Shown in pieces: positions 14,610 through 41,792 of a stretch of 64,000 bases of DNA (position 1 is the stretch's first letter; every line of letters begins with the position of its first letter). Below the pieces are notes generated by a model, which made no database searches, was not told the origin of the DNA, and saw nothing but the letters and a program-made list of their open reading frames with translations. The DNA is taken from positions 84,108,324 to 84,172,323 of the forward strand of contig CP136061.1 of assembly GCA_032622095.1 (NCBI GenBank), given 5' to 3'. Source of the DNA: Siphonodentalium dalli (Eukaryota; Mollusca; Scaphopoda; Gadilida; Siphonodentaliidae). The translations under genes were made by a program, and so were the position numbers.

Positions 14610-17600
14610 GTAAGTAATAGGAATGTAATGAGTATAATGACACGTCGATGTACCCGCACATTGTACTTGTTGGTCAACATCTTCCTATTTCTCCTCTGCA
14701 TTGAGGGCAGGCCTGGTTTATTTTATGATCTATAATTATAAAATGTTCAAAAGAGAAATGGGCAACAAGCTTAGGGGCTTTATCAGAAAAAAATGTTACC
14801 CAACTTACCCCAGGGTATCTCGGAGTAGATACCATTGGGGTAGGGCTGGGCGGTATTTCAATATATTGACTATAGTCGGTTTGGAAAAGAAAAACCGTAT
14901 TGAAACCGTGTGTAAAATAAAAATTCAATATATCGTAACCGTAATTTTATCACCTGAAAAGACGGTTTCAAATTACAATCCAATACTGAGTTGAATACTT
15001 TACCGCTGATTGAAAGCAGCCTTTATCGGTCGCTCCCATGTTATGTCTCTGTTGTATTCAATTGTAACCAATGACGCAATGGTTGTATTTTGGGCTGAAG
15101 TAGAGCGATGGAGTATCTTCTTCCGAATTCAACCTGATAGCGGTGTAACGTCACGAGTGATACTTCGTCCAAACTTTTCGACTCACGACTCGGCAGTATT
15201 TGTCGTTCAATTATATCTTAAAATTTGACTCAGGTTGACTGACAAATCCGTGACATTCATTCAACTAGCCCGCCATTGAGTATTTGCAGACCCGCAGGTG
15301 TTGGTCGAAGTATATCACTTGGAACGTTACCTCACTACCATCAACACTAATTTTAAATATAGTTGAGCTGCATTGTCTCCCTTCCGTTTCACCTTGCTAT
15401 TATCATTTCATTATTATGATAATAGATGAATAAAGTTCTCCCCCTTAACTAAATCCCGTGTTCAAAAGTTAATTAAAAATGTTCCGTAATTCATTGTGTG
15501 TGATAGACTGCAGACAGCCCAGAATGAACCATCTTGGCCCAATTCTACTAGGTCCTCTATCAACCTATGAGCACGTGCTTAGCTATGACGTCACGGGAAT
15601 GTGAATCGCGTGCTGAAATGTAAACAATGGAGTGATCAGGATAACTTGAGCCTGTAATTCACTCAATGTTGTTGCGTATTCCAGAATGCAGGAACTTTAT
15701 ATAATGGACACATGCCATTCTGAGAATAGTTTATCATTTACTGCCTGGCGATAGTGTGTAGAATTTTAATCCCTAATAACGAAAACCCGGAGTGTTATAT
15801 CTCTCGTTTAAAATTTGAATTTACGTGATATTTTTCAATAGTAAAATAATATTCAATAAAACCGTATATCGCGGTGTTATTTTGGAAAAATCGCGGTTTT
15901 TAAAAACGTCAATACCGCCCAACCCTACATTGGGGTATGTATAGCAGACAGGTTAAATTTTACTCTTGGCATGCCTAAATCCTTTGGCATGCCATACAGA
16001 CCACATCCTCATCTGATCACCACAAAACTTCATATGGATCTTCGGGGTGACCTCCCAATGGGAGCCGTCGATTATTTTCAAAATTTGATGAAAAACATGG
16101 CTACCGGCAGCCATCTTGGATTTTACTCAGTGCATTACTAAATCCTTCGGCACACCTTACTGGCCACATCCCTCATCTCATCATTTCGAGACTTCATACG
16201 GATCTTGGGGGGGACCTCTTGATGGGAGCTATTGATTATTTCTGAAATTTGTTAAAATACATGGCCGCCAACAGCCATCATGGATTTCAAATTTGAATCC
16301 ATCAATACAACTTGCAGCCTGCATATATTGAAGAAATGTTTTGTAAGTTTACAGGCATGAATTGGATCACCTCTAGATGAGAGCTACCGGTATTAAATTT
16401 GAAAGATTTTCGGTGAAAAACATGGCTGCCAGCAGCCTTCTTTGATTTAAATATGGCTGCCAGCAACTTTCTTTGATTTTACTCTTCATATGACTAAATC
16501 CTTTGGCACACCCTACAGACAACATCCCTCATCTGATCGTCACCAAACTTCATATCTTCAGGGTGACCTAGATGGAGCCATAATTTTTTTTCGAAATTTA
16601 TTAAAAACATGGCCACCAGCAGCCATCTTTGGATTTTATTCTTTGCATGACTAAATTTTTTGGCACACCCTATAGACCACATTCCTCATTTGATTATCAA
16701 GAAAGTTTATATGGATCTTTTAGGTGACAACTGCCAACTGGATGGAAGCCATCAAATGTTTCCGATTTAGTTAGGAAAACATGGCTGCCAGCAGCCATTT
16801 TGGATTTTACTCTTTAAATGACTAAATCTTTTGGCACACCCTACAGAGAACTTCCCTTTGACCGATCGTGACTAAACTTCAATGACCACTAGATGGGAGT
16901 CATCTAAATTTTTTGAATTTCGTTTAAAAAAAACATGGCCACCGGTGGCCATCTTGAATTTTACTCTTTGTGTTATTAAATTATTCCGCCCACCATACAT
17001 GTACATGCCACATCCCTCATCCGATCATCATCAAACTTTATATTGATCTTTGGGGTGACCACCAGATGGGAGCTATCAAATTTATTTCATTGGAAAAACA
17101 TGGCCGCCAACAGCCATCTTGGATTTTACTTTAAATACATGTATGTATCTCTTCATGTTGACATCTTGATTACTTAGACATTTCAAGTTTGCGCATTCCT
17201 ACCGGTACTTGTTCCATTGACATTTTAATTGTTTGTTTTTTTCAGTAACCCTTCTACAGGATTCATGGCGGCTCCTGCTGGTTTTCACTCGTCTCAGTTC
17301 GCAATAAAGTCAGAACCTATCGATGACTCATATAATGGACAGATTCACATAAAATCAGAGCCACCTGAACCTAAAAGGTAAAGGAAGTTACCCTTGTCTT
17401 GGGAAGTTACCCTTGTCTTCACATAATGGATTCTCCCATCAGTAAGCCCGGGGGAGGGGACGTAAAAACCGAGCCACTAGAACCTAAAAGGTAAGGACGT
17501 TACCCTTGTCTTCGCAATGGATTCTCCCATCAGTAAGCCTGGGGAGGGGGGGACATGAAACCGAGCCACTAGAACCTGAAAGGTAATGAAGTTACCCTTG

Positions 17601-20600
17601 TCTTCACAATGGATTCTCCCATCAGTAAGGCTGGGGGGGGGGGCATGAAACCGAGCCACTGAAACCTAAAAGGTAAGAAAGTTACCCTTGTCCTCACAAA
17701 ATGGAGTCTCCCCCATCAGTAAGTGGGGGTGGGTGGTGAAACAGATCCACGAAACCTAAGAGGTAAGAAAGTTACCCTTGTCCTCACAAAATGGAGTCTC
17801 CCCCATCAGTAAGTGGGGGTGGATGGTGAAACAGATCCACGAAACCTAAGAGGTAAGAAAGTTACCCTTGTCCTCACAAAATGGAGTCTCCCCCATCAGT
17901 AAGTGGGGGTGGGTGGTGAAACGGATCCACGAAACCTAAGAGGTAAGAAAGTTACCCTTGTCCTCACAAAATGGAGTCTCCCCCATCAGTAAGTGGGGGT
18001 GGGTGGTGAAACAGATCCACGAAACCTAAGAGGTAAGAAAGTTAATCGTTTTCCATTGAATGGATAATCCCTTCAATAAGCCAGTGGGGGAGACGCCGAA
18101 ATAGAGCCACCTGGACCTAGTCGGTGAGGAAGTTAACCTATGTGCTTTGAGAACAATTCCCGCACTAAAAACTTAATGACATAATGGAGGATCAGAACGG
18201 TAGTTTTGTTGACAATTTTCGCAAGCAACTTGTCAAAATTGGAGCAAAATTAGAACTCTTATGTCTGACTTGCCATGCGTGTGATGTGCATTTTGATTTG
18301 TGTGTTGATAAAATAATCGGAGAACCGAATCACACAGTTTCGAAATATAGTTCTTTCGTTTCAGTGGGACTTTTCAAACTTAAGGTTCAAAATGTATACA
18401 AATTTTGTTTGATTTTTTGTGTGCATAACAAGAGCAATATATTGCCCTGTTCGCTTAGTATATATCTTAATTTCGCGGAAGTCCACCAAATGTGGGTGAA
18501 ATGTAGCACCATATAAGGCATATTATTTATTCTAATGCTCGTTGTGTTTACACTGTTTTAAACTTTGAGAGGGTTATAATTCCCGTAATTTATTTAATGT
18601 ATTACATTTATATCTCCAATGTTTAATTAATCTATTTATTTTTTATTTATTGACACACATAATTACGATTACAATGGAGAATTTATCGTAATTTGCGTTG
18701 TTAGTCCAAAATCTACGGAATATTTTCAACGGAAAATGCCGAACACAGTTCGCGAGGTCAACTGAATTCGCATACTTTAAAAAAATTGTAAACATTGCGA
18801 TAAATGTCTCTTTTCGCATTAAATTACCGCTTTCAATTCACAACTGATGTGGGTTTCAGATCAAATAGCATGTCTTCTGTTGAAAATATCCGTTTATTGT
18901 CGCAATTGTGATATTTTATTTCATATAATTGTGGTTTTATTTGAGCGGGTCACTAACGCTTAAGTCGTGTCATAGGAATGCATGGGCCTGGAACTCGGAC
19001 TAAAGACCGGCACCTCCATCCCAATATCTTAGCCGGCTTTAGTACGAGAAGACTTGGACTATAGTGTCATTGACACTTTCATTTTTGTCGACTTGTGGTT
19101 TGTTGAGGTGTGGCTGCCCCTAAACCTGTTTAACATAGCCATTGATGTTGATGGATTCTTTCAATCACCTTTGCTCCTTGGTGACTTGAGGAAATACCGG
19201 TACATGTATCAAGTATGGACATTAAACAACTAGAGTAGTGTAGATGGTAGAATACATGTATATGGTAGAATTACTCGGTTGGCATTTACATGTATGGCAA
19301 TCAGAAAAGGAAAGGAAATTTAATAGTGTAATGAGGAGTGCTGAACTGATTGTAGTTACAAATAAGCGGAACAGGCCGTTGCTGGAGCAGTAATCACGGT
19401 ACCATGCAGTATGCCTGTTTCTATAGGGTTGACAATTACTGCACATTTTCATATCTATTATCCAATTTTGTATACCGGTATTGTTTAATCATAATCATGT
19501 TATAGTTAACAAAAAATCATTTAAAAAAAATTGATTTAAATCAGCCAACCCTGCTATTTTTAGCCATTTTATTGTTATTTTAGGCCATTTTCTTACATGT
19601 ATTGAATATTTGATGGGGGCTTCGATGCCACTTTATTTAATATTTACAGACCTGCACCAAAAAAGGCACCAAAGAAGAAAGTGAAGAAAGAACCTGTGCA
19701 GCAAGAAATAACAGACCATCTGATCGTGAAGAAAAAACGGAAGATCGATCGATTTAACGGAATGCCGGAGGAGGAAGTGATGGCAAGGCTGCTGCCAGAT
19801 CATTTAGCAGAAAATCTCGACATTATTATCGTAAGTTAAACCAGATCATAACACGGAAAATCACGACATTTTTAACTGCTGACTCTAGGCGTTTAATTCA
19901 TATATCCATAAATTAATTGAAGTTCAAGTAAACAATTCAGTTAGTACACGTCCCTTATCCATTTTATTTTTCAGATTGGTATAAACCCAGGATTATATGC
20001 TGCGTATGTTGGCCACCATTACGCTGGTCCTGGAAACCATTTCTGTGAGTAAATAATATAGCTCATCCAAATTACACCAACACAATGGTGTATGCATGAC
20101 ATTAACCCTTTACCTAACAGAAGGGCCCTGTGCCAATGCATTCTCTTATATATGCGAGTCGACCATAGGTCGCCTCGCATATATAAGAGAATGCATTGGC
20201 TTAACACATTAAAAATTATAAAATTGTTAAAGAATGTAGAACCGCGCGAATCTCTTATATATGCGAGGCGACAGGGACCAGCCTAGACCATATTTTCAGG
20301 GCGAAATGACTTCGCCCTACTATCAAAATAAGGCGAAGTGGCCGTTCTATAGGGCGAAGTGAGTCTACAAAACTTAAATTGAACAGTACTACGACAGGAG
20401 TCGCTATAGAACGAAAATAGGAGAGATGTAATATGTCAATTAAACTTATGAAACAATGGTTGAAATATGGAGTCTTTATGTTCACTTCATGACCCTAATA
20501 ACTATTAATAATACCCAAACATAATTGTGAGAGGATAGCAGCATTTTATATCGTAATTGTGGGAGAATGACAAGATTTTATTTCATATTTTTCGGGTTTT

Positions 20601-26600: not shown

Positions 26601-29600
26601 CAAAATTCAAAATTTCCTCCCATCGGATCCTGGGACCATAAACATGTGTTGGATTCTCGCAAATATTTTTACGAGAAACCATATGGATTCTCCTAAAATA
26701 GAATGAAATTTATGGCCTGGGTATTGACTTTGTCTGTCTGTCCAAGTCTGAGTTTAGTGTGCTTGTCATTTCCAAAATGAGGTCCCCAGAGGGGGAATTT
26801 AGTGATGCTATCCCACATAGCGGGCTGGCATCAGCATCACCGTTCACCCGCTGGAGATCTCATTCTGCATGACCTCATCTGCTATGGGAGACATAGACTC
26901 AGATTGAAGTTCCCAAATGGTGATGTACACCCATTGGGAACCTCGATTATATAATGTGTCGTCTGCCAATTTAGGGATATAGAGAAACTTGACTAAAAAA
27001 GAATTGGAATCTATGAGAAGAAGTTTCTATAGAAATTTGATATTAAAGATATTTTCCAGAGAAGATGAGGCCTAAGCAGAATGAGGTCCCCAGAGGGTGA
27101 ATTTAGTGATGCTAGCCTGCTATGCGGGATAGCGTCACTAAATTCACCCTCTGGGGACCTTATTCTGCAAATGAAACTCACTAAACGCAGACTTGTGTCA
27201 GTCCGTCCTTCCTTCTGGGCATTTATCTCAGGAATGGGTTGTCATGGCTGCTTTTAATAGAGTGCCCAATCACGCCTGGAAATAACTCAAATTTTGGTGC
27301 TGGACAAAACGACAGGCACCAATTGGTTTGCGCTGGTCACTAAAGTTATGTGAAATTTGTGGTATTTTGATCAAAGCAATAATTTTGCATTGTCTGGTGT
27401 TGGCGCAGCTTTTCAAAATAGTAATCTGCCTGAATCAATATAAAGAAACGGTGTAATCATTTTGTTGGCGCCATGCCAAGTGATATGTAGCATATGCCTG
27501 TTCATCACTAGTGAGAGATAAGGAAATATATATGAAATTGCTTTTTAAATGATATAATAGGGGTTTCATGTGATATATACCATAGGAATTTGATTAGATT
27601 AGTCCTAAATAAAAATAAAACCCGCCCGCCCACTGCACTTATTTAAAAAAAACAATTGTCTGTGAAACAAAACATAAATTTTGATTGTCTAAGGCCAATA
27701 TGAAATATATGCTGGATTAGGCCAAAACAAAAATTATGCGTGTTTCCCGTAACCCGACCGACCGTCTTCAAAACCCCCCGAACCAAGTTCATTTTATTGG
27801 TTTTAAATAAAAAAAATCAATCTATAAACCAACCGACCGCACTGATAACCAAACTATGTACACGTGGTTCTATTTTATCTGATTCACCTCGCGAGATAAA
27901 TAATATCTTTGATATATTTATATATTTTTCGCAAAGCCACATCGTCACTCTAACGAAAAGTCAAATTTAATACGATCTGATTCAATACCGGAAGATCACG
28001 AGTTATCGTTCCTCTTCGCTGACCGGAAACACGTGTTTTTGTTGATATTTTACATTAAACATCGATGTTTTCCGCGGTTGATTCGAACCGAATCGATTCG
28101 AACAAGTTCATCTCAACGATGGCGGTCGCACATGGGTCGATTCGAAGTATCTGGGTGAAAATGGAGACGTGTTCTCTTTAATATTTACTGTATATATAAC
28201 CACAGACTACAATCGATGCAATCAGGTTCCTCTTTCGGTGTCCGGTTCGCAGTTATATCGTCCGGTTTGATACTGATAGCACAAAATACACTGTTTTCGA
28301 ATGTCGTTCTCTTTCTCAAGAATTGACAAGTTACTGAATCCGATTTTTTGCGCATCAATTAAATCTTATAAATGTTGTCTCACATTCAATTATGTGATTT
28401 AATCGCTCGTTTCATATATATAAAACCAAGAAATATCATTTACATCTAAATATTAACTCAAATAATAGTTATCTTCTCCATAAACATGCAAGATTTGCGA
28501 TCGAAAACTCGGGGAAAGTTTGTGCTGATTGTTAGCAAGTCCAGGGCTTTGTATTTTTTTCGCATGCATGTTAATCGCAATTTACAACAGATATAAAACA
28601 CAAAATAAAGCCCATGGAATGACTTTGCATGAACAGGATGTTGTATTGTGGTATGGTAAGATATATTACATATAGAATACCTTTACTTTGTCCATAGTAT
28701 GCACAATTTGAATTCCACATGCCATGCATGATTTACTAACTGATAAGCTACATACTATGGTATAGATACCAACACTAACTAGTAATCAACAGAAAACCGA
28801 CTTGCCACTTCAAATTTTCTGGTTACAAAACGTCCAACAGGACATCGAAAGTGGGCCTGTGATAACACAAAATTTCCATTCATGGGGTCTAAGGTCCACT
28901 CATGGGGTGTTAGGTCCATTCATGGGGTGTAAGGTCCACTCATGGGGTGTTAGGTCCATTCATAGGGTGTTAGGTCCATTCATGGGGTGTAAGGTCCACT
29001 CATGGGGTGTTAGCTAGGTCCACTCATGGGGTGGTAGGTCCATTCATGAATATTCCCAGCTCAAAATTTTGCTTGGTTCAGGGGGTGTGAACTTCAGTTT
29101 GAAATAGGGGGTCCTGAAATTTTCCAACAAAGACCCTGAAGCCAACTAATAAATTACTCATCTCTCCCCCGTGCCCCCTACAACAACTCATCTCCCCCCC
29201 ACATCCCCTACAATGTTAACTGTCAACTAATAGATTTCTTATCTCTCCCCCATGCCCCCTACAACTCATCTCTCCACCACTCCCCCTACAGCGTTGACTG
29301 TTCCCCGCACCCACTACAACATTAACTGTCCACTAACAAATTACTCATCTCTCCCACATTCCCCCTACAAAGTTAACTGTCAATTAATAAATTACTCATC
29401 TCTCCCCCGTGCCCCCTACAACTTTAACTCACCTCTCCCCCTGCCCCCTACAACAACTCATCTCTCCAATGCGCCCCCTACAACAACTCAGAAATCCAAA
29501 CTTTGTTAGACATTTTGTACCAGGCTCTCAGCATACAAATAGTAGTTTCCTTCCTTCCATGATTTCGATATGGAATGGCCTAGAAAAAATAGCACAACAA

Positions 29601-32600
29601 AGCGCATCAATTACTACCTTCTCTAATATTGTAAACCCACAATTTGGGACACTTAAACCACCAATGTTTTATTCTAGCGGCAAAAGGAAAGCTAACATTT
29701 TGTTATGTAGACTCCGAAATAAATGCAGCGATTTGAATGGGGACAAATGTCAAAATCACTTAATAAGTAACCCGGAATGTAGTTGTGGCTACCTAAACGA
29801 GGACGCTGATCATTACATTTTCACTTGTCCCTATTATCGAACAGAAAGGGCCAACCTCGAAGAAAAAATAATTCGAATAGGATTATATCAAGTTCATGTT
29901 GCTGATCTACTCTGTGGATCAGTCTCACTTTCCAATGAAGGAAATTACAGATTGTTCGCAGCTGTCCAAAAATATATTATAAACTCATTGCGATTTGGCG
30001 ATGAACAGATGCATTACATTTAGTGAACATTATCAGTTGTGTATTAACTTAAATTGAGAACAACATGCACTAAACATAAACATATGATATAAAACTATCT
30101 TCCCTTACCCCATACCAATCTTGAACATTCCATATTGTATTTGTGTATTTTGCCAGATTTCTTTTTGTTTTGTGGTTAACATTTATGTAGTTAAATTTTT
30201 CATCTGTGCATCACCATCTTTTGCCCGGGGAGAGGAGCTCCACCTAAGTTGTTATAACTTGTGCTCCAATCCCTATTCACTCATCCTACATTATTGTGTT
30301 ATAAATATGTTTTGTTTGATATGTTAATATGGGATGATCAATAAAATAAACAACGAGACCATAAAAAAATAAAATGAAAAGCCCACCGCCCGCCCCTATT
30401 TTTTTTGGGCTCGTTACGGGAAACACGCATTCATTTTGTTTTGGCCTTATCATCTCCACGCGACCCTAAGGCCAATATAAAATATATGCCAAACTTATTT
30501 TTTGCCCCTCAAAAAAGATAAATTTTATTATGAAAATTTAGTTATAAATTATTATAAAGCCTTCAATTGTATAAAAAAAAACAATGCAATTAACTGTTCT
30601 TTCAACCATTCTTAAACAGGCCTTAAGGTTCAACGAGTCACTATAATGTTTCTCGCGAAACTAATCAATTTTCAGTGCTTTATGACCAAATTGATTCAGC
30701 ATTTGATTTTCGCAAAATTAAATGTATTTTGAGCACTAAATTAAGTATCTTCAAAGCCTTTGGTATATTGAGAAGTAGACTACGCCTTAAATTGTTGTAC
30801 TAGCCATAACTTTCTTTGTTGGCATGAATACAAAATTAATCTTCGCCCGCCCTAATTTTTCAAAAAAGTTTGATGATAATCTAGCAGTTCATAAATTGTG
30901 GCCTAACCTATTTATAAATTGTGGCCTGACCTATTTATAAATTGTGGCCTGACCTATTTATAAATTGTGGCCTGACCTATTTATTAATTGTAACCTACCG
31001 TACTGACCCGCGTTTAGGCCCAGGGGGCCTTTGTTTTATTTGAGCTCAAAAATCCAAGTGGGCTTAAACCCGAATATGACCCTTTGCAAACCAAAAATCC
31101 CAAGAAATCGGGACAGTAAAACTGAAGAAAAAATAAAGTCGATCCAGCAGAGTTTCGGTGAAATATACACGTCTTCCAGATTAAATAAAGTTAAGTATAA
31201 GTTACTTGGAGAAAGTATTTGTTTCATTTTTATGTGTATATTAAAATATTACTTGTTGTCTTGTTTTATTGCCCAAAATTCCCATAAATGACAGTTTGTA
31301 AGCATCATGGGTCATCGGATTTTTCGGCCATTTCAGACAGTTGGGTAAATCCACTATCTATAGTCTATATCTATAGTTATTATCTATAGTTTATATCAAT
31401 GTTCAGATAATTAAAAAATGTCAGAAAATTGTACAGGGAAATATTATGCAACATATAAGAGAGCGACTTAATCCGATTAGGATAACAATGAACCCATGCA
31501 CTGATGCAGTGCTATATTCATGGCCCGTTGTCTACAAAGATGTTACAATACAATAGTGACCAATTTAACAAAGCCAGTGAGTCTAGTTAATTAACGAAAT
31601 GACGTTGTAAATACGTATACAAAAAAACACGTGTTTTAATGTTTAGAGTCATCGCTCCCAAACCGTTGACACAGATTAATGTTTATACTATAGACTATAG
31701 TCTATACCGTAAAACGTGAAAAATAAAAGTTTAAAATTTTTAAATAATGATTATTATATACTAACCACCGGGTACCAATACGACATCGGTATCTCTTTTT
31801 TTGAAGGCATCTTGTGCTGTTGTTGTTGTTGAATGACAAGTGCCCCTTCTGCCCCATTATTATACCCACCGTGTGTTTACATAACCAGGGAATGAGTTCT
31901 TTTTGTGTTTGGCCACATGTAGGAACATACCGACATACAAAGAATATGTTTTTACAGTACTGTTGTTGACATGTGTGCGATGCACGCACGTGATTCTTTG
32001 AAGTGATTGATGTTTACCGCGTTCTCAGATATACGCCGTTAGCGAGTGGGTTTGATGTCTGTCGACGTTTGGTTTCCCCCAGGAAGAATAATTGAATAAA
32101 CAAATGAGATTTTAAGATTCACTTTATTTTATTTTATATATTATTATCACTTACCTACGAAGTATAACTTTCCATTTTTCGTGGCATTCTCGCCGTCACC
32201 GATCGTTTGTGAATATTCTTCCCGTTATATATTGGAATTATTTATTTGGGAAGTATCATTAGCAAATAATTACTTACCACCGCTGAAATTTAACAAAATA
32301 TGGGGTGGGCTTAAACACGAATATACCCCTGTGCATGGAATTTGGTCAAAAGATATGGGTGGGCTTAAACACGGGCATGGGCCTTGAGCCGGGTCAGTAC
32401 GGTAACCTATTTATAAATTGTGGCCTAACCTATTTATAAATTGTGGCCTAACCTATTTATAAATTGTGGCCTGACCTATTTATAAATTGTGGCCTAACCC
32501 ACCGGTATTTGTTAATTGTGGCCTGACCTATTTGTTAATTGTGGCCTAACCTATTTGTTAATTGTGGCCTGACATATTATAAATTGTGGCCTAACCTATT

Positions 32601-35600
32601 TGTTAATTGTGGCCTGACCTATTTATAAATTGTGGCCTAACCTATTTGTTAATTGTGGCCTAACCTATTTATCAATTGTGGCCTAACCTATTTATCAATT
32701 GTAACCTAACCTATTTATAAATTGTGGCCTAACCTATTTGTTAATTTTGGCCTGACCTATTTGTTAATTGTGGCCTAACCTATTTGTTAATTGTGGCCTA
32801 ACCTATTTGTTAATTGTGGCCTAACCTATTTATTAATTGTGGCCTGACCTATTTATAAATTGTGGCCTAACCTATTTATTAATTGTGGCCTAACCTATTT
32901 ATAAATTGTGGCCTAACCTATTTATCAATTGTAACCTAACCTATTTATAAATTGTGGCCTAACCTATTTATTAATTGTGACCAATTTGTTTTTTTCCAGG
33001 GAAGTGCTTATATCTGTCGGGTCTCATTGCGGAACCAATGAATGCGTACGATGATTTTAAACTGTTGGAGCATGGGATTGGTTTCACCAACATCGTTGCC
33101 AGGACAACCAGAGGCAGTCCAGATCTCTCTAGGTATGATACCTCCGGAATAATAGATCTTCATTTTTTTTTATGCAATTACACAGTATAAACAAATTTGG
33201 GCCGAATCACAAGTGACATACAATTAAAGATGGTCTATCTCTTTATAAACAAACTAAACATGTGTTATATAATTACCGGGGTAAAAAATATTAGATATGA
33301 ATCGAAGACCCCTGTCTGGAAATGCTTCTATCGATTAATATTGGTTATATTTCAAATATGTTTTTTTAGTTTAGTTTCCTATATCCCCAAATTGGCTGAT
33401 GACATAATGAATGCATAATCAAAGTTCCCAATGGGTGCACATCACCATTTTCACCATCTGGGAACTTAATCTGAGTCTAGTTCTCCCCATAGTAGATGAG
33501 GCCATGCAGTATGAGATCCACAGAGGATGAATTTGGTGATGCTAGCCCATTGTGTGGGGTAACGACACAAATTCACCCTCTGGGGACCTCATTCTGCAAA
33601 TTGTCGCTTCAGAACTAAAGTGTTCTATCTCCACATTTTTATTTTTGTGGGAAATTGAGTTTAAAATTTTGACCCCCCTGGGTTCACATGTTCTCATTCT
33701 ATTTTGAAAGATAGTACACAGCGGGTATGTTAGCTGCTGAAAAAATACAATTATAGGACGAGTTTTGAGACAAATATCTTGGGTGTATTCACGAAAAAAC
33801 ACTGGAGAGTTTCCGGTTTTTTTTGGTGTTACAGTGATTTTGTGTTTTTTAATGATATAAACATGAAAAAATCCCAAATCAAACCATTTTCTGTGTTATT
33901 TTAACCAAATAATTATCTAAGAAATAAGATGTTCATACCTAGGAGTGAGAAAGCATTATTTCCAACTAGTCACTTCGTTGGCACTCTGCCAAGTTCAGGT
34001 TCCATTGCTTTCTATTGAAGGTCAGAGATACAACATTTTAGCACTGAAATTTATTTATTCACTAGGCACAAAATAAATAGATTCATTGGTCCACAGTGGA
34101 GATAGAACAATATAGCACTGTCAAAAATGTGAGTTTCGGACAGGAAATCCCACACCGAATCGAAAGATACCAATATCTCATTTTCCCGCCTAAATTGAGA
34201 TAGAACAGTTTAGTTCTGATGCGACAAAATGTTGAGCACCATATTTGGAGGCCTGATGTTCATTGTTCTATCTATGTTTCATTGTTCTATCTATGTTTCA
34301 TTGCAGAGCTGAAATAAAAGAAGGTGCTGAGATCTTAGTCGAAAAAATAGCTAAATATAAACCAAAGATAGCAGTGTTCAATGGGAAAGGTGAGAAAATA
34401 GCTAAATATAAATCAAAGATTGCGGCATTCAATGGGAAAGGGAGAAAATAGCTAAATATCATTAAAAGATAGCGGCGTTCAATGGGAAAGATGAGAAAAT
34501 AGCAAAATATAATACAAATATAATACAAAGATAGTGGTGTTCCATGGGAAAGGGAGAAAACAGCTAAATATATACAAAGATAGCGGTGTTCAATGGGAAA
34601 GTGAGAAAATAGCTAAATATAAATCAAATATAGCAGTGTTCAATGGGAAAGTGGAGAAAATAGCTAAATATAAACCAAAGATCACTTTGTTCAATGGGAG
34701 AGGAGAGAAAATAGCTACATATAAAACAAAGATAGCTAAATTTAAACCAAAGATCACTTTGTTCAATTGGAAAGGTGAGAAAATAGCTAAATATAAATCA
34801 AAGATAGCTAAATATAAACCAAAGATCGCTTTGTTCATTGGAAATAGTGAGAAAATAGCTAAATATAAAACAAAAATAGCTAAATATAAAACCAAAGATT
34901 GCGGTGTTCATTGGGAAAGGTGAGAAAATTGGTAAATATAAACCAGTGATAGCTAATATAAAACCAAAGATCGCTGTGTTCATTAGTAAAGGTGAGAAAT
35001 TGGGCTGAATTATTTTCGACGAGGCAGTGGTATTTTGTTAGTAAAAAACAAACTTTTGGATAAGCACCTATATTGATTTTATATGGGGTGACCTCTGACG
35101 TTATCATTGAACTAATATGGGTTCATCCTTGCACCATCACTATTATCCACGCTGATAAAAATGCAAGATGATGGATAAGCACCTAATATTGATTCATATG
35201 GGGGTCACTTCTGACGTCATTATTGACCTAATATGGGTTCATCCACCATCATTATTTATCGACGCTGATTGGTTAATCGCAAGAGCTGACATAAATTAAA
35301 TTAGTGGGTCTGATTACCCTTCGTAGAGTTTTCATTTCCCAACCCCAGTCCTCACGAAGAATTCCTCGCGGGAGTAATAAATTACTCCTGTATAACAGGT
35401 TACGGGAGCAATTGCTCCCGCAATTCATAAATGAATAAATGTTCATTAACTTCATATTATTGGTAAATTAAATAGTTATTACTGTTTTACATATTAAAAT
35501 TTACAATGTACAAGTACATGTTGTTGTTTCTACTTTGATTTTGTGTTGACTTAAAGTATTATTCCCTGGGGTCTTATTACAATGAATGCCAAGTCAATTA

Positions 35601-38600
35601 CATGTAGGGTCCATGAAATTTTATTAATAAATAATTCAACTAGGACTAGTTGTTGCACTATTTTCGGCATCAAGTTGCTCGAAATACACAGCACTCAGGT
35701 GGCTTTTGGTGTTTAAGTGCCGCTCCAGAGTCCATTTGGAAATAAAAGACGAACCGGCTGCCATTTCGTACTTTCGTACTTTACCGGTAAGTATTTTTCC
35801 GAATGCTTGGTGCATGCTTTACAATAATCTTTCGTGATGATTGTTTTGCCATCCCTGTTCTCAGTCTTATAACCAAAATATTGTTTAAACATCCATGATA
35901 GGAACAGTGACAGGAAAACCATGATTATTTATTTTATTTTCAAAATGTGGTGCGTTCGATACGATTTCCCGGAGTTTCCGGTGAGAATACATTCCGGTCA
36001 GAAGTTAACACTAAAGCGCCGGTTTTCACTATGAAAAAAGATACTTTGCGCCAGGAAAATTGAAATTGCGGGCGCTGCCGGGCAATAGCGCCCGCTTCGT
36101 GGGGAGGACTGCAACCCCGGGATTCAACTTCAGTAGAGCCAATCAGAACACACTATTAGTAGCTCCAAAATAAAGGAGTCCAATCGAAACGATTAACATA
36201 GCACGATGTGATATAATTCGGGGGAATACTGCAAGACTTCCGAGAAATGAAAAGTTGACGGGAATACGATAGACTCAGTATCCATATGAATCTGAGTTTA
36301 TGTTTACAAAGACTGGCGACGATTCAGCTTTACCCAGCTTTACCCAGCTAGCAATATTTTGAAATACCAGCATACTTTAGGTCATCATGTATTAATAATT
36401 GTCTGATTTCAGGATATATAGTTTACATCTTCTTAAACATATTCTGTTTTCAGGTATCTATGAGATATTTTCTGGAAACAAACACTTTGTCTTCGGAAGA
36501 CAACCAAAGTATTTAGAGGGCACAAAAACAGTGAGTTCTTAAAATATGTCCCTGTAAATACAGTTAGTTATTTTCCCGCCAAATTTTGTTTAGGAATAAA
36601 CTATGTGCATCCGTTTCGTGAGTCTGTCTGTGAGAACTATGTGCATCCGTTTCGTGAGTCTGTCTGTGAGAACTTGGATGCTCTTTATCTTTGTCATCAT
36701 CAGTTGGATACAAAGCAATTATTTCATGTGTCTTTTGGGAACAGTCAAAATTTTACCCATACAGAGCCCCAGACAAACAGACGACACTCTTCTATATGCT
36801 TCTATATATGTGTGGGGCTCCCTGCAGGGTAATGGATGTTTTTTATTTTATGTCCTAAAAAATGTAAGAAACATTTATTTAAAAAAAATGATAAAAAATT
36901 GTTAGGCCAATGCATTCTCTTATATATGCGAGGCGACCTATGGTCGACTCGCATATATAAGAGAATGCATTGGCACAGGGTAACAGTTTAAGATTATTTA
37001 CAAAGAGCGGGTTACATCCATTGATTAAATTTGACAGGCATGTTTAGGACATAAAATAAAAAACATCCATTACCCTGCAGGGAGCCCCACACATATATAG
37101 AAGCATATAGAAGAGTGTCGTCTGCTCATGTTTGTCTGGGGCTCTGTATGGGTGAAATTATAAAATTGTTAAAGAATACAAGAAAAAATTATTAAAATTG
37201 TAAAAAATTGTTAGGCTAATGCATTCTCTTATATATGCGAGGCGACCTATGGTCGACTCGCATATATAAGAGAATGCATTGGCACAGGGTAAAAAAAATC
37301 TCGACTCCAAATGGGAGTTATTGAATTTGAACATTTATTTAATTTTGTTGATACTTTTTCTTTTTATTTATAAACAAGCCTTGAAATAGTGTGTCATTTG
37401 CAGAATGAGGTCCCCGGTGGGTGAATTTAGTGACACTACCCCGCACAGTATGCTGGCATCACTAAATTCACCCTCTGCAGGACCTCATTCTGCTTAAGCC
37501 TCAACTGCTATGAGATACCTAGGATCAAATTGAAGTTCCCCAGTTGATGTTGGTGATGATACTCTCAGGTGCTAAATAAAAGTGCTGGGTGACATTTTTA
37601 CCCAAAAAAAAGAATAATAGTGCTGGTGCACAATAAATGTGCTGGGTTACGGATTTTACTTTTCATGGTAGTATGCTTAAAACTCAAGCCATGAAGGCTT
37701 ATGTGTACATTTATATAGTACAGGGAATCATACCTGTGCGGAGGAAGTGACATTTAGGTATTATGCCTCATGTATCTTCACTATCTTGTTTACCCCATTC
37801 ATACGTTATGTATGACCAATGCGTGCAATTACATATTACTCATATGATATATAGTTGGCATAGATTGTGTTACATGTTGATTGTTGTATTCTACAGTACA
37901 CACTGCACATGACTCTTTTTTCTCTTCTTGTAGGTTGGGGGGTCTTCGGGTAAATATGGTTCATTATTCCGATGGATAATTATTCTGAGGGTTCATTATT
38001 CCGCTATACAGTAAGTGGAGAGTTTAGCCATACCTCCATGATGTCATGAATATACAATCCCCCCCCCCCCCCAGTCGCTACGTCCAATGTCACCTTCAAG
38101 TAAAATACAACCTGGAAGTAAATGCAGACGGAAATGATTGACACAGATTTCGCCGTATTTTCGTATCTATAAATACGTTGTCTATTTTCATCTTAAAACA
38201 CCGGATAAATAAATCATGAATCGAGAGTTAAATTTGTCTAAAAGTAATACGAGTTATAAATTATGTACCGTAGGCCTAATTGTAAAAGATATCCGCATAA
38301 ATAACAGTAGGCTCGTTTCGGGTCCCGTGATTGGGCGAACCGTGACTCTCAAAATAGGTTTTATATCGAAGCGATGTCGCATCTCAGCCAACCAAAAACA
38401 GATTTATTTAGTGGTTTGTGACTTCTAGTATTGACATTAGCACACTCGTGATTCGTTCCATTGTTATATTCGTTTGTTTATCACCCAAAAAAAAGAATAA
38501 TGTCACATTATATGATGGATTTACCCCCAAAAAAATAATAAACGTGATGGGTCACAATAAGCGTGATAGTGTGTATTTTTGCTCCAAATTAATAAACGTG

Positions 38601-40308
38601 CCACCTGAGAGTATGCATTTTATCTTCAGCAAATTACTGAAATTAGGGGATATAGAAACTACCCAGAAGGGAAAAGGTAACTAAAAACAATGTTAATTTG
38701 AGACTAGATACTTCCCAGAAGATGAGGCTTTAGCAGAATGAGGTCCCCAGAGGGTGAATTTTGTGTTGCTAGCCTGCTGTGCGGGATAGCATCACTAAAT
38801 TCACCCTTTGGGGACCTCATTCTGCAAATGACAGATGCTATTTTCAGGCTTGTTGGTATTAGACGGAGAGTAAGAGAGAATTAGATAGTAATGTTTCAGA
38901 TAGACGGAGAGTAAGAGAGAATTAGATAGTAATGTTTCAGATAGAAGAGAATTTGAAGATATGTGGATAATCTGATATAGACAGATTTAGGAGAGCTGAC
39001 CTATAGCCCCTGAGTCGACGATAACACTTTACAAAGAATTCAAATTTGAATGCAGGTGTTTTATCTTTTGATTTGATTTGGTTATTATGCGCGGGTGTGG
39101 TTATAATGAGCGATTCTTCATGGCTATTATTAATTGAATCGCTTGGTGCTTAAAATAAATTTTTATACTTTGAAAATGGTTATATTATCGTCAGGTGAGA
39201 GTTCAGTGGACCCACGGAGTATATTAAATGGAGAATAATCTTGCTCAAAGTAGTTATTTTTATGAATATTAATTCATATTAACAACGCACACCGTCATTC
39301 TTATATATTAATTAAATGCAATAACGCTAGATGGCAATATCATTTGCATTAGTTTATCGCCGATTGTTTTCTATGAAGTAGAATGGTCGATTTCTTTGAA
39401 AATTTCAGTGATGCTACATTCCACAGGTTGTCATAGAGCCTGTAAACTAACTTATAAGTTTTATCACACTCGAGCAAGTCCCTAATATGTCTTTAATTTG
39501 ATTCTTGCAGAGCGTCTATGTGATGCCAAGTTCAAGTGCTAGATGTGCACAGCTTCCAAGGGCTATCGATAAAGTTCCATTCTATCTCGGACTGAAAACA
39601 CTCAGGGCCCATTTACGGGGTGAACTTCCTAATATGGAAGAGTCGGAGGTGACTTTTCCCGATATCGAACTGAAGAATGCCAAAAAGGAACCTGTTGAGG
39701 TTCCAGATCTCAAACCCGACATCAAAAACGAAACTCTGGAAAATGACTCTAAAAGCAAGGGAAATAATCGGAACAAGAATGGTGTATCTAGTCACAGCTC
39801 AAGACATTCGCCTGTTACCTCAGCAGCTCAACCGAGTCAGTTCACTCAGCACAACCCCTACTCAACCATGCAGGATTTCACCACCCTCATGTCTAGTCAA
39901 CCAGTGTTCACTAATCCTCCGTATCTACCCGTCAAGCAAGAGCGAGACGCCGATAGTAACTGCATGCAGAATTACTACGGCAACGGAGTACCTGCTCCGT
40001 CAACGACGACGGCGCAACCATTCATGCCAAATTACGCTGTTACGTGTGGCCATTATACAGTGCCCATGCAGCCCTACCCACAATACTCGGCGGCTAGTTT
40101 CAATGGATCCATGCTTCCGATGGCGAATCCGGAATACTCGCATAATTACTGGTCTCCTCACTCTTCCACGCAGTCTTCAATGCAATCAAACTTTGTTGAG
40201 AACTGCTTCAACAACAACAGCCAGGACTCGAGCAACAGCGGTGACAATCTGTTACTCGATAATCATGTCCGGATTAAATCGGAGCCTCTTGACTTCGACC
40301 AGTTATAA
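14581..40308 (+). CDS. TDG: Thymine DNA glycosylase (G/T mismatch-specific), eight coding exons, 500 aa
   Basis: The enzyme removes thymine or uracil opposite guanine, and in vertebrates also 5-formyl- and 5-carboxylcytosine, in base excision repair and active DNA demethylation in the nucleus. Joined coding exons: 14581-14609, 17246-17377, 19650-19830, 19975-20044, 33000-33132, 34307-34389, 36454-36530, 39511-40308. All introns are GT/AG, phases agree, and the sum is 1503 nt including TAA. Domains: disordered Lys-rich N-tail (1-85); KIDRFNG (85-91), which starts the core; GINPG with catalytic Asn118 (human Asn140); HHY at 128-130 (human 150-152); PGNHFW at 133-138; GFTN/RTT at 165-174 (human Asn191/Thr197 area); [17 protein letters not shown] at 240-249 with Arg246 (human Arg275). 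A Ser/Gln/Asn-rich C-tail follows (about 300-500). Human TDG is 410 aa, so the tail is long. The start is chosen for its strong AACATGG context, an upstream in-frame stop, and an N-terminus resembling MEAENAGSY. Residue equivalences come from memory of the human protein. Family assignment is very secure; expression was not tested. Confidence 0.96.
14841..15927. mobile_element. hAT-type element in TDG intron 1 (1087 bp)
   Basis: The ends TAGGGCTGGGCGGTATTTCA and ATACCGCCCAACCCTA are inverted, flanked by CATTGGGG at 14833-14840 and 15928-15935. TAGGGCTGGGC ends with 8-bp duplications are classic for hAT. Interior ORFs (up to ~97 codons) show no transposase motif, so it is probably non-autonomous. 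Confidence 0.9.
15955..17140. repeat. Diverged ~170-bp tandem array in TDG intron 1
   Basis: About seven units run 'ttggcacaccctacaga..acatccctcatctgatc', 'aaacttcatatggatctt', 'gggtgacc..agatgggagcc' and 'catggc(c/t)gccagcagccat'. The same family occurs at 14010-14360, 59285-59870 and 60850-60940. Confidence 0.85.
17246..17377 (+). CDS. TDG: TDG coding exon 2 (residues 10-54), two SUMO consensus sites
   Basis: The acceptor is a T-rich tract ending TTTTTTTCAG at 17245, and the donor GTAAAG starts at 17378. The exon encodes a disordered stretch with two psi-K-x-E sites, AIKSEP (Lys31) and HIKSEP (Lys46), and ends in EPPEPK plus two bases of Arg54. The last ~30 nt of this exon and its donor are the template for the tandem array that fills the start of intron 2. 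Confidence 0.9.
17361..18130. repeat. Array in intron 2 made from the end of TDG exon 2 and its donor
   Basis: Each unit joins a copy of the last ~30 nt of exon 2 (GAGCCAC..GAACCTAAAAG), its GTAAG donor, GTTACCCTTGTC.., and CTCCCATCAGTAAG. The first three units are 85-92 bp and diverged. The next four (AGGTAAGAAAG at 17671, 17761, 17851, 17941 and 18031) have an exact 90-bp period. A final diverged unit ends near 18125 (GAGCCACCTGGACCTAG, donor GTGAGG). Confidence 0.92.
17443..17490 (+). other. TDG: Candidate 48-nt in-frame mini-exon inside the intron 2 array
   Basis: It is bounded by CTCCCATCAG (acceptor-like, weak polypyrimidine) and GTAAGG (donor). Inserted between exons 2 and 3 it keeps frame and has no stop, giving [16 protein letters not shown], with another SUMO consensus VKTE. 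Corresponding segments of later units are 49, 47 and 43 nt and hit stops. No expression evidence is available. Confidence 0.35.
18131..18537. other. No gene recognised
   Basis: A 110-codon + strand ORF (18184-18516) has no recognised domain, lies inside intron 2, and has unremarkable codon use. I do not call it a gene. Confidence 0.3.
18538..19075. mobile_element. One-ended copy of the AGTCCAAGTCTTCTCGTACT element
   Basis: This segment matches 60290-60812 closely, in the same orientation, and ends in TTTAGTACGAGAAGACTTGG. The other terminal repeat is missing, so it is a truncated copy. Confidence 0.8.
19650..19830 (+). CDS. TDG: TDG coding exon 3 (residues 54-114), Lys-rich tail and core entry
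   Basis: The acceptor TATTTACAG ends at 19649 and the donor GTAAGTT starts at 19831. The exon encodes a basic stretch ([13 protein letters not shown]) containing VKKE at Lys66, then [12 protein letters not shown] and IDRFNG, matching the vertebrate ITDTFKVKRKVDRFNG region that opens the catalytic domain. It ends in NLDIII, the first core beta strand, in phase 0. The basic tail in mammals binds DNA non-specifically and contributes to G/T processing; the same role is inferred here. Confidence 0.95.
19975..20044 (+). CDS. TDG: TDG coding exon 4 (residues 115-138), catalytic motif
   Basis: The 70-nt exon lies behind a 144-nt intron, with a TTTTTCAG acceptor and a GTGAGT donor at 20045. It encodes [19 protein letters not shown] and GNHF, then the first base of Trp138. 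It carries the catalytic Asn118 in GINPG and the HHY and PGNHFW residues that line the base pocket. Every key residue of the family is present, so the enzyme should be active. Confidence 0.97.
20106..21328. mobile_element. TTAA-flanked element with TATATATGCGAG palindrome, carrying a hAT insertion
   Basis: TTAA at 20102-20105 and 21329-21332 flanks CCCTTTACC and GGTAAAGGG ends, as in piggyBac-type elements. Just inside is the hairpin CCAATGCATTCTCTTATATA ... with CTATGG/CCATAG at its turn, a module found at least seven times in the window. Its right half is interrupted by a hAT element. Confidence 0.82.
20272..21143. mobile_element. hAT-type element nested in the TTAA element (872 bp)
   Basis: The ends CAGGGACCAGCC and GGCTGGTCCCTG are flanked by CGAGGCGA at 20264-20271 and 21144-21151. 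Subterminal TTCGCCCT / AAGGCGAAG repeats occur at both ends. No transposase is visible. It splits a hairpin module of the older element, so it is the younger insertion. Confidence 0.92.
21340..25090. other. Large part of TDG intron 4 with no recognised gene
   Basis: It contains a short run of TCGTAGC / GCTACGA inverted pieces near 21845-21935. Near 22700-22775 is a segment ('ctcgttagcggaaac', 'aggcctta') related to 30400-30450. A hairpin lies at 23318-23420. A piece at 24570-24930 shares 'acgggcggcgtt' and 'tacaccatcgtacg' with 10690-10850. No coding evidence. Confidence 0.4.
23318..23420. repeat. Hairpin palindrome
   Basis: GATATTCCCCGAGCTGTCGG pairs imperfectly with CCGACAGTGAGGGGAATATC, and AAATAATTCACC pairs with GGTGATTATTT, around GAGGCGAAGCC. 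Confidence 0.7.
25095..26200. repeat. Two copies of the 'agtttgccctaacatcatcag' repeat, one holding a LINE tail
   Basis: Copies begin near 25100 and 25970, with a third at 54690-54780. Each has 'gcaggacccaaccgcatcatagcagat' text (spread over positions) and 'ggaccacttgacc'. The second is split at 26029-26113 by ATAGGATAGGATAGGATAAT and AT-rich text, which looks like the reversed 3' tail of a LINE. Confidence 0.65.
25306..25480 (-). pseudogene. LINE reverse transcriptase fragment
   Basis: The minus-strand frame gives [20 protein letters not shown], then [20 protein letters not shown] and [12 protein letters not shown]. This is the thumb-side segment of non-LTR RTs (W-x-L-x-V-N-x-x-K-T-K ... 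F-x-Y-L-G). Only ~55 codons survive, bounded by a poly-C run at 25303-25312. Dead fragment in TDG intron 4. Confidence 0.82.
26744..27194. mobile_element. Full long-form foldback element, GAATGAGGTCCCCAGAG family
   Basis: The terminal repeats AAGTCTGAGTTTAGTGTGC and complement are followed by the GAATGAGGTCC hairpins at each end. The interior is shared with 760-990 and 41440-41640. This is the cleanest complete copy (451 bp). Confidence 0.85.
27600..28870. other. No gene recognised; arm of a possible larger element
   Basis: The segment 27690-27775 has 'aggccaaaacaaaaattatgc' and 'gtgtttcccgtaac', whose complement occurs at 30400-30450, so the LINE tail and satellites between may sit inside a larger inverted-repeat unit. 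No coding evidence. Confidence 0.35.
28874..29050. repeat. Minisatellite, ~19-20-bp unit
   Basis: About nine units of TTCATGGGGTGTTAGGTCCA or ACTCATGGGGTGTAAGGTCC. Confidence 0.9.
29140..29490. repeat. C-rich degenerate repeat
   Basis: Imperfect units contain CATCTCTCCCCCGTGCCCCC, TACAACAACTCAT, AATAAATTACT and GTTAACTGTC. The ORFs that cross it (runs of Pro/Thr/Leu) are repeat artefacts. Confidence 0.8.
29490..30370 (+). pseudogene. 3' end of a LINE (ORF2 C-terminus and 3' UTR)
   Basis: After the repeat, the frame reads [20 protein letters not shown], then IWNGLE (the usual SFLP..I..WN-L box), later [37 protein letters not shown] (the CxCG..E...H..F.C zinc-like tail), and stops at 30023. 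The 3' UTR runs to AATAAAATAAACAACG near 30345. RT and endonuclease are missing. The surviving ~175 codons are open, suggesting a fairly recent truncated insertion. Confidence 0.85.
30889..32990. repeat. 23-bp array 'attgtggcctaacctatttat' ending at the exon 5 acceptor
   Basis: About five units (30889-30996) and about 25 more (32403-32990) have been split by an inserted element. The unit reads GTGGCCTAACCTATTTATAA with variants (GACC, GTTAATT). The last CTAAC lies 37 nt before the AG of exon 5. Confidence 0.92.
30998..32402. mobile_element. TA-flanked inverted-repeat element inside the 23-bp array (1405 bp)
   Basis: The ends CCGTACTGACCCG and CGGGTCAGTACGG are bordered by TA. Further inside, GTGGGCTTAAAC(C/A)CG repeats occur near both ends. 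ORFs within (86, 95 and 68 codons) show no transposase features. Confidence 0.85.
33000..33132 (+). CDS. TDG: TDG coding exon 5 (residues 138-182)
   Basis: The acceptor is TTTTTTTCCAG ending at 32999 and the donor GTATGAT starts at 33133. The exon encodes [12 protein letters not shown], a variable loop ([12 protein letters not shown]), then [19 protein letters not shown]. Asn168 and Thr174 match human Asn191 and Thr197, which contact the flipped base. The intron before it is 12.95 kb, and its last ~590 bp are a 23-bp tandem array that reaches the polypyrimidine tract. Confidence 0.96.
33220..33600. mobile_element. Partial elements in TDG intron 5
   Basis: 33220-33375 matches one arm of the element at 49260-49795 ('gaagacccctgtctggaaatg', 'cttctatcgattaatatt'). 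33400-33600 is a reversed, partial GAATGAGGTCC foldback element with a terminal hairpin around 33545. Confidence 0.7.
34307..34389 (+). CDS. TDG: TDG coding exon 6 (residues 182-210)
   Basis: The acceptor is CATTGCAG ending at 34306 and the donor GTGAGAAAA starts at 34390. The exon encodes [20 protein letters not shown] and IAVFNGK, corresponding to human EFREGGRILVQKLQKYQPR and IAVFNGK. The last ~50 nt are repeated about ten times in the following intron. The donor itself lies at the boundary between the exon copy and the first intronic copy. Confidence 0.95.
34390..34995. repeat. Array in intron 6 made from the end of TDG exon 6 and its donor
   Basis: About ten units follow the exon, each a copy of exon positions ~34341-34389. 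They read GAGAAAATAGCTAAATATAA, (C/A)CAAAGAT(A/C), TTCAATGGGAAAGG. Translation of several gives [16 protein letters not shown] variants. Some units have an internal extra ATAGCTAAATATAAA. Several units keep AAAGGTGAG, a copy of the functional donor. Confidence 0.93.
34996..36453. other. Rest of TDG intron 6
   Basis: It contains a direct duplication (about 35055-35115 and 35170-35245, 'atggataagcacct', 'actaatatgggttcatcc' type), a GGGAGCAATTGCTCCCG palindrome near 35404, and a BED-finger fragment on the minus strand. Confidence 0.5.
35713..35922 (-). pseudogene. BED-type zinc finger fragment, hAT transposase-like
   Basis: A 69-codon minus-strand ORF has [19 protein letters not shown] and [18 protein letters not shown]. 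The aromatic W/F-x-x-F start, then C-x2-C, is that of BED fingers at the N-terminus of hAT transposases and ZBED proteins. The distal His pair and the whole catalytic part are absent. A decayed fragment or lone exon; moderate certainty. Confidence 0.5.
36454..36530 (+). CDS. TDG: TDG coding exon 7 (residues 210-235)
   Basis: The acceptor TGTTTTCAG ends at 36453 and the donor GTGAGTT starts at 36531. The exon encodes [20 protein letters not shown], then LEGTKT, ending in phase 0. It matches human IYEIFS...FGLQP. The loop between IYEIFS and FGRQP is shorter than in vertebrates. Confidence 0.94.
36605..37300. mobile_element. Inverted-repeat cluster with two TATATATGCGAG hairpins
   Basis: A 39-bp direct repeat (TGTGCATCCGTTTCGTGAGT) is at 36603-36680. 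GAGCCCCAGACAAAC and GTGGGGCTCCCTGCAGGG text at about 36758-36835 recurs inverted at 37070-37150. Two perfect ~67-nt palindromes (36907-36973, 37216-37282) of the CCAATGCATTCTCTTATATA type sit beside each other. A third pair lies at 61470-61780. Confidence 0.75.
37385..38855. mobile_element. Foldback GAATGAGGTCC element split by another insertion
   Basis: Left hairpin end at 37400-37490, right hairpin end at 38730-38830. Between them lies an insertion with ends ACTCTCAGGTG (about 37560) and CACCTGAGAGT (to about 38609). The inner element contains AATAATAGTGCTGG / AATAAACGTGATGG subrepeats and a C15-type run near 38070. No transposase was recognised. Confidence 0.72.
38865..38950. repeat. 46-bp direct duplication
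   Basis: AGACGGAGAGTAAGAGAGAA and the following ATTAGATAGTAATGTTTCAG occur twice in tandem. Confidence 0.85.
39511..40308 (+). CDS. TDG: TDG coding exon 8 (residues 236-500), DNA-insertion loop and long C-tail
   Basis: The acceptor ATTCTTGCAG ends at 39510. The exon opens with [18 protein letters not shown], the family's second conserved motif; Arg246 corresponds to the human Arg275 that fills the gap left by the flipped base. The core ends near residue 275. The tail holds EVTFPDIEL, which resembles a SUMO-interacting stretch, three psi-K-x-E sites (IKNE Lys307, VKQE Lys377, IKSE Lys491), and a Ser/Gln/Asn/Tyr/Pro-rich disordered middle. It ends EPLDFDQL and TAA. Human TDG's tail is much shorter and has one main SUMO site. 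Confidence 0.95.
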   Translation, partial: SVYVMPSSSARCAQLPRAIDKVPFYLGLKTLRAHLRGELPNMEESEVTFPDIELKNAKKEPVEVPDLKPDIKNETLENDSKSKGNNRNKNGVSSHSSRHSPVTSAAQPSQFTQHNPYSTMQDFTTLMSSQPVFTNPPYLPVKQERDADSNCMQNYYGNGVPAPSTTTAQPFMPNYAVTCGHYTVPMQPYPQYSAASFNGSMLPMANPEYSHNYWSPHSSTQSSMQSNFVENCFNNNSQDSSNSGDNLLLDNHVRIKSEPLDFDQL

Positions 40309-40795
40309 TGTATTCTTACTGAGAAGGCCGACAAGATCGGCCAGTATAATCCATGTGCATTGTTAACATCGAGTCCTGAAATCATGTCCGGATTAAAACG
40401 GAGCCTCTCGACTTCAACCAGTTATCGTGTATTCTTACTGAGAGAAGATCGGCCAGATAATATATGTGCAGTGTTGACATCGTGTCTTGAAATCATGTCT
40501 GGATTAAAATTGGAGCCTCTCGACTTCATCTAGATATAGTGTATTCTTACTGAGAGAAGATCGGCCAGATAATCTATGTGAAGACATCGTGTCTTGAAAT
40601 CATGTCTGGATTAAAATCGGAGCCTCTCGACTTAAACCAGTTATCGTGTATTCTTACTGAGAAAACTGAAATGATTGGCCAGATAATCCAATTGCAGTGT
40701 TGACATCGTATCTTGAAATCATGTCCGGATTTAAATCGGAGCCTCTCGACTTCAACCAGTTATCGTGTATTCTCATTCAGAAGACCTGACCAGCC
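40309..40795 (+). repeat. TDG 3' UTR array: four copies of the last coding segment
   Basis: The final ~45 coding nt plus ~65 nt of 3' UTR are repeated. Units begin with AATCATGTC at 40261 (coding), 40380, 40491, 40598 and 40717, a period of 107-119 bp. Copy 1 still reads RIKTEPLDFNQL in its own frame. Copies 2 and 3 have one extra base and copy 4 has ATTTAAA. All lie beyond the stop. The repeated GGATTAAA places ATTAAA, a common polyadenylation hexamer variant, in copies 1-3. Confidence 0.9.
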
Positions 40796-41710: not shown

Positions 41711-41792
41711 GTTTTCGATGTCTTAAAATTGTACTAGTCGGCAGAAGTGTGGGCTAGCTTTTCATGTTCTAGACATGATTGGTGTCAATTAA

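Follow-up and report, generated by a model that had tools for sequence, protein, structure and literature searches.

Does a tandem array that begins inside a coding exon point to something acting at exon ends, or is it what local duplication leaves behind wherever it happens to fall? A single thymine DNA glycosylase (TDG) gene poses this question three times over. It lies in a 64-kb stretch (the window) of a 2.23-Gb assembly in 9 contigs. An earlier note on this DNA had described arrays that start in three coding 3′ ends, those of exons 2, 6 and 8, and copy each of them downstream together with the border signal, and three such cases in eight exons were judged hard to explain by chance. The analysis below indicates that the arrays are a real, well-formed case of a known kind of minisatellite, most likely a neutral by-product of local duplication, and that the TDG case is vivid rather than surprising.

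In the PDB, exon 8 and exon 3 each match best to chains of G/T mismatch-specific thymine DNA glycosylase (E-values of 3.2e-11 and 2.1e-9, respectively), from which the gene was called TDG. The motif words GINPG, GPGNHF, KCLY, GFTN, FNGK, EIFS and VMPSSSA are found on the + strand in this order; they are short words taken from general knowledge, and other matches to them are also present. Together, the PDB matches and the ordered motifs identify a UDG-fold core with TDG sequence. A search of the assembly with the Pfam UDG profile reported another locus only and not the TDG locus, probably due to the splitting of the coding sequence over exons. The possibility of a TDG retrocopy at C7:58046326-58046694 was rejected: the frame found there is another UDG-family frame with no reported resemblance to the window, and we take this gene fragment to be SMUG-like. 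Seven coding exons were defined, with borders placed from frame and splice words, and are numbered 2–8 as in the earlier note (Table 1). Exon 2 ends in IKSEPPEPK plus AG, followed by the phase-2 donor GTAAAG. The window also holds an open frame of 210 codons (29391-30023) that on visual inspection looks like the terminal part of a retroelement reading frame.

Table 1. Features of the TDG gene and its arrays (window positions), and control loci with duplicated exon borders.
Feature	Position	Strand	Description
TDG exon 2	17246..17377	+	open frame in phase with exon 3; acceptor tttcag
Array 1	17378..18139	+	TRF period 90, 7.1 copies; unit dissection
End of dispersed repeat family in array-1 unit (intronic part)	17399..17443	+	usually bounded by TTAACC
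First array-1 copy, possible cassette exon	17443..17490	+	48 nt, 16 residues with upstream AG
TDG exon 3	19650..19830	+	without array
TDG exon 4	19975..20044	+	GINPG...GPGNHF; without array
23-bp intronic array, not exon-derived	32403..32982	+	TRF 24.9 copies; blast
TDG exon 5	33000..33132	+	KCLYLSGL...GFTN...PDLS; 3′ splice-site region adjoins 23-bp array
TDG exon 6	34307..34389	+	3′ end + G; last ~49 nt = array-2 seed
Array 2	34390..34999 (end approximate)	+	ten downstream units, exon-6 end + donor
TDG exon 7	36454..36530	+	IYEIFS...; without array
TDG exon 8	39511..40308	+	to stop TAA; last 48 nt = array-3 seed
Array 3	40309..40786 (end approximate)	+	rest of unit 1 + four downstream units
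L009 (myosin)			exon end + donor
L045 (TCP1)			exon end + donor
L031 (TCP1)			acceptor + exon start
L081 (USP)			acceptor + exon start, long array
L046 (TCP1)			acceptor side, degenerate, mostly intronic

Unit dissection, blast, TRF and a test for duplications spanning a border all confirmed that each array starts in a coding 3′ end (exon 2, 6 or 8) and repeats it downstream, and the coordinates first given for them proved correct within ~50 nt. The best E-values for the exons against their downstream copies within the window were 1.8e-12, 2.0e-29 and 1.3e-21 for arrays 1, 2 and 3, respectively. According to the spanning test, arrays occupy 3 of the 14 TDG exon ends, every one of them a 3′ end, and the borders of the first copies agree with the exon phases. 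The tandem units of arrays 1 and 2 take in both sides of the predicted exon/intron border, while the border spanned in array 3 is that between the stop and the 3′ UTR and not a splice site. The observation that the border signals (a donor, a donor and the stop/3′ UTR) were copied along with the coding ends also held up: a GT donor is present at all eight downstream unit ends of array 1 and is retained at six of the ten in array 2.

The seed of array 1 is the 3′-terminal ~31 nt of exon 2 (17347-17377) plus the donor. Eight downstream copies follow, each consisting of the donor, ~60 nt of intron and ~27–31 nt of exon-2 end, with a period of ~90 (113 nt for the first, 90–92 for later ones); they reach 18123, and donor-like sequence continues to 18139. 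The exonic letters of exon 2 alone gave 34.6 bits, below the 38-bit cut-off. Identity of the exon-like part to the genuine exon end is 85% in the first copy and 69–74% in the other seven, with a mean identity between copies of 80% for the exon-like and 81% for the intron-like part. Copies 4–7 are nearly identical and the edge copies divergent, which is the usual mark of exchange within an array. For array 2, the seed is the 3′-terminal ~49 nt of exon 6 (34341-34389) plus the donor, and the downstream units measure 49–73 nt, the last four (72–73 nt) containing an extra internal duplication of ~21 nt. The complete AAGGTGAGA is present at 3 of the 10 downstream unit ends, and the frame is broken by indels. 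Array 3 is seeded by the final 48 coding nt with the stop (40261-40308) plus 3′ UTR, and its units, which combine coding end, stop and 3′ UTR, are 107–119 nt long when complete.

The stretch of intron in the array-1 unit has a history of its own, being the end of a dispersed repeat. With arrays 2 and 3, a DNA search of the whole assembly returned their own locus only; with array 1, it returned the own locus and a 45-nt match (91%) to the intronic stretch on contig C3. Because this search passes over common words and missed ~400 short matches, it is weak evidence that the arrays are unique. A 26-nt piece of array 1, allowing up to 3 mismatches, matched the assembly 401 times (207 forward and 194 reverse, own locus included), while the reversed 26-nt control pattern gave 0 matches in the whole assembly at the same tolerance. 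When nine copies of the repeat were compared, similarity began at about one left edge, and TTAACC was found there in seven of them. This edge is perhaps that of an element of the piggyBac type inserting at TTAA, as we presume. The simplest reading is that array 1 would have formed once the element, in whole or in part, had come to sit about ten nt into intron 2. Membership of the whole arrays in a dispersed satellite was also considered and set aside, since the search that skips common words gave no such matches, the intronic part of array 1 excepted.

Other arrays are present in the window as well. The 23-bp array (~25 copies) stops 17 nt before exon 5 and enters its 3′ splice-site region; its unit junction contains CTAAC, which we take to be a branch-point-like word. 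Ten further long arrays were found, none of which overlaps TDG exons 2–8 by coordinates. The share of sequence in long arrays is 8.9% for the window and 4.9% for 86 control loci.

These control loci are the exons that matched Myosin_head, Cpn60_TCP1, Kinesin and UCH best, taken with 1,500 nt on each flank. Ten near-duplicates were removed, leaving 76; as best family matches including several paralogs, they do not form a random exon sample. The family searches also took in 14 control genomes. A splice-site predictor was too crude, and the counts were made without it. Boundary-spanning tandem duplications were found at 5 of the 76 exon loci, two on the donor side and three on the acceptor side (Table 1), a figure that is the union of an exon-only and a spanning test, judged by eye. 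Two loci were left out of the count, L086, where an array touches the border without spanning it, and L087, where an array ends near the match. In the exon-only test, 3/76 exon intervals (L009, L031 and L045) were duplicated versus 266/1,234 intronic intervals, the latter spread across 47 of the 76 loci; in the spanning test, 4/152 exon match edges (L009, L031, L046 and L081) scored versus 725/5,776 intronic points from the 76 loci. Comparison of 5/76 exon loci with 266/1,234 intronic intervals gives a Fisher p of 0.001, and p-values of this kind are optimistic because the intronic points and intervals overlap. Array coverage does not rise towards the exons: the 250 nt closest to them have 4.0% and 4.9%, and bins farther away 2.6–9.5%. 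In this sample, exon ends look depleted rather than targeted for tandem duplication, as purifying selection would give.

Two pairs of control loci show related borders. In the myosin family, L009 (1446-1594) and L011 (1608-1756) are two related genes with a common tandem duplication of ~67 nt covering exon end and donor, which may be older than the gene duplication or may have been converted. A USP-type exon has its acceptor and exon start repeated at one border in L081 (1704-2688) and L082 (1680-1870), loci that are >85% alike over >1.5 kb and lie ~240 kb apart. The former carries 16.5 copies of period 59 (or, counted at period 90, 11.0) and the latter 3.0 copies of period 63.

Set against this background, TDG does stand out. 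With arrays at 3/7 of its exons versus 5/76 in the control, Fisher's test gives p = 0.018 for a gene that was picked for its arrays; at the control rate, three or more of 8 would be reached with a probability of 0.012. By the stricter exon-only test, the figures become 2/7, exon 2 falling under the 38-bit cut-off, versus 3/76. If the genome has thousands of multi-exon genes, as we assume, many of them would have three arrays by chance, and TDG was chosen as a striking one. We regard the excess as real and as not needing a special cause. The argument from improbability is not supported in view of the 5/76 control loci and the more frequent duplication of introns: exon-touching arrays in the 76-locus sample are not commoner than the intronic background. 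As for the recurrent local process proposed earlier, local duplication remains the natural cause, but the part that placed the process at exon ends was not borne out (5/76 versus 266/1,234).

We consider it very probable that the TDG arrays are neutral minisatellites of the kind described in amphioxus as mirages, whose seeds happened to straddle a coding border. They would have begun with the local tandem duplication of a segment of 50–120 nt across the border, caused by replication slippage or by break repair through short homologies, and the copies would then have been expanded and partly homogenised by slippage and unequal exchange. As the sequence shows, the first copy still forms the end of the exon and keeps its donor or stop, and the extra copies all lie downstream within the intron or 3′ UTR. 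The copies appear to drift, accumulating stops and frameshifts and losing some donors, and look unselected. The lower frequency of duplication at exon borders than at intronic positions in the sample gives no sign of targeting. That borders are seen duplicated would follow from how common tandem duplication is in this genome and from a presumed tolerance of copies outside the message: a copy placed downstream of a donor or stop leaves the first signal intact and lies outside the message, and so should be free to expand. The preference for downstream copies is not strict, since copies upstream of acceptors were found in 3 of the 5 control cases. Several observations count against the neutral reading: the TDG excess, the position of all three TDG cases at 3′ ends, the low number of copy–exon differences at second codon positions, the high scores of most array-1 copy donors, the ATTAAA words in array 3 and the altered splicing caused by boundary repeats in human duplicated genes. 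Under this reading the excess must come from the case having been picked.

An alternative that we regard as unlikely is that the copies are used, either as decoy donors that tune the splicing of exons 2 and 6, as a nascent cassette exon (the first array-1 copy) that would add a second K-x-E-P motif, or in 3′-end formation through ATTAAA. The donors of six of the eight array-1 copies score 10.1–11.4 versus 7.6 for the real donor, and the other two are within 0.3, on a rough matrix of consensus frequencies taken from general knowledge. On the other hand, TAA is met at once on reading through the exon-2 donor, so use of a downstream donor would truncate the protein. When segments running from acceptor-like to donor words were measured, the first array-1 copy was the only one of seven (the eighth was missed by the segment pattern) that is open and a multiple of three in length; it is phase-matched and could be an in-frame cassette exon of 48 nt. 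The six others, of 43, 47 or 49 nt, are out of frame and each is stopped in that frame. ATTAAA, a variant poly(A) word, occurs in three of the four downstream array-3 copies (40392, 40503 and 40610), where it derives from coding letters, and AATAAA is absent from 40306-42500. The ATTAAA words might thus be poly(A) signals, and a role in 3′-end processing is possible. The earlier suggestion that copies were retained for extra splice signals fares poorly, given that most array-1 copies are frameshifted or stopped and that their exon-like and intron-like parts have diverged equally. Boundary repeats alter splicing in some human genes (PMC2812944), whereas regular splicing is reported to be undisturbed by amphioxus mirages (PMC3087553, PMC3902484).

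A more far-reaching version, to which we give very little credence, holds that boundary minisatellites would be a standing source of cassette exons in the lineage, the first array-1 copy being an already spliceable 48-nt exon and the others decayed. If this were true, the first copy would give TDG a second V/I-K-x-E-P motif, a motif that we take to be of the SUMO type. A living case of a mirage copy recruited as an exon would seem to be new; the model itself has already been published for the amphioxus globins (PMC3087553).

Equally improbable in our estimation is a process linked to exon ends, in which repair or slippage associated with transcription or splicing would seed arrays preferentially at coding borders. 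The proportion of TDG exons affected, its excess over the control and the exclusive location at 3′ ends are what such a process would leave. However, duplication of the sampled exon borders was ~3–5 times rarer than that of intronic positions in these loci, array coverage shows no rise towards exons, and the acceptor side is affected too.

We find it extremely unlikely that the arrays were inflated, collapsed or misplaced during assembly. The near-identity of array-1 copies 4–7 makes the copy number uncertain, and one amphioxus mirage seemed misassembled in a draft (PMC3087553), but most copies differ by substitutions and indels, unlike what duplicated reads would produce.

Differences between copies and exons were also counted by codon position. 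At positions 1/2/3 they number 22/6/27 in array 1 (p = 0.001, with the near-identical copies 4–7 not being independent), 17/12/24 in array 2 (p = 0.13) and 9/2/5 in array 3 (p = 0.10). Second positions have the fewest differences in all three arrays, which hints weakly that coding constraint may have acted on the exon or the copies. That the arrays are decayed former coding repeats is hardly credible: lengths of 51 or 72 nt, multiples of three, are found in six of the ten downstream units of array 2, and read-through of array 2 is open for 20 codons beyond the donor, but units of 49, 50, 61 and 73 nt break the frame, the codon-position comparison for array 2 is not significant, and array 3 is located after a stop.

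Read as neutral minisatellites, the TDG arrays carry a more general message. Minisatellites at exon borders are frequent in another large animal-type genome, and the 5/76 sampled exons provide a measured background against which claims about arrays at exon ends can be judged. In addition, duplicated splice sites are a supply from which new exons or introns could possibly arise.

The statement that no parallel has been described may hold for TDG itself, for which a literature search covering a small part of the TDG papers found no report of boundary repeats. It does not hold for the structure, since amphioxus mirages and human boundary repeats are in print. The original amphioxus Adh paper reportedly concerns mirages. 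Mirages are minisatellite-like tandem duplications of exon/intron boundaries in the Adh3 and globin genes (PMC3087553), with further examples in PGBD5 and troponin C (PMC3902484). They affect 5′ and 3′ borders, carry splice signals in many copies, apparently leave splicing undisturbed, show length and somatic instability, and are homogenised in the cluster interior with the boundary units excluded (PMC3087553). The TDG units resemble mirages in spanning the exon border, copying splice signals and having a homogenised interior with divergent edges. Mirage units measure 10 to ~160 bp and vary in copy number; those of TDG measure 49–119 nt, and the two similar loci sharing the USP border differ in copy number as mirages do. 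Unlike those mirages, the arrays described here are in a TDG gene, three of them in one gene and one at the stop/3′ UTR. The reports found under the name mirage concern amphioxus only, and the TDG arrays, known from sequence alone, fit the name by anatomy.

Human genes in segmental duplications provide a second parallel, with minisatellites at exon-intron boundaries whose number varies between paralogs and with transcripts showing altered splicing and new introns (PMC2812944). The boundary position and the paralog variation, which recalls L081 and L082, are shared; unlike the human genes, the TDG gene is not known to lie in a duplicated block. The origin of introns from tandem duplication is reportedly treated by Rogers 1989, Zhuo 2007, and Gao and Lynch 2009. 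A model in which introns arise through tandem duplication of exon sequence containing AG/GT is set out in a further paper (PMC2891723). The model shares with the TDG arrays the local tandem duplication that includes splice signals, but its new intron arises within an exon, whereas the TDG copies sit in an existing intron or 3′ UTR. Ordinary intronic and intergenic minisatellites are arrays of the same kind, from which the TDG seeds differ in that they include coding sequence.
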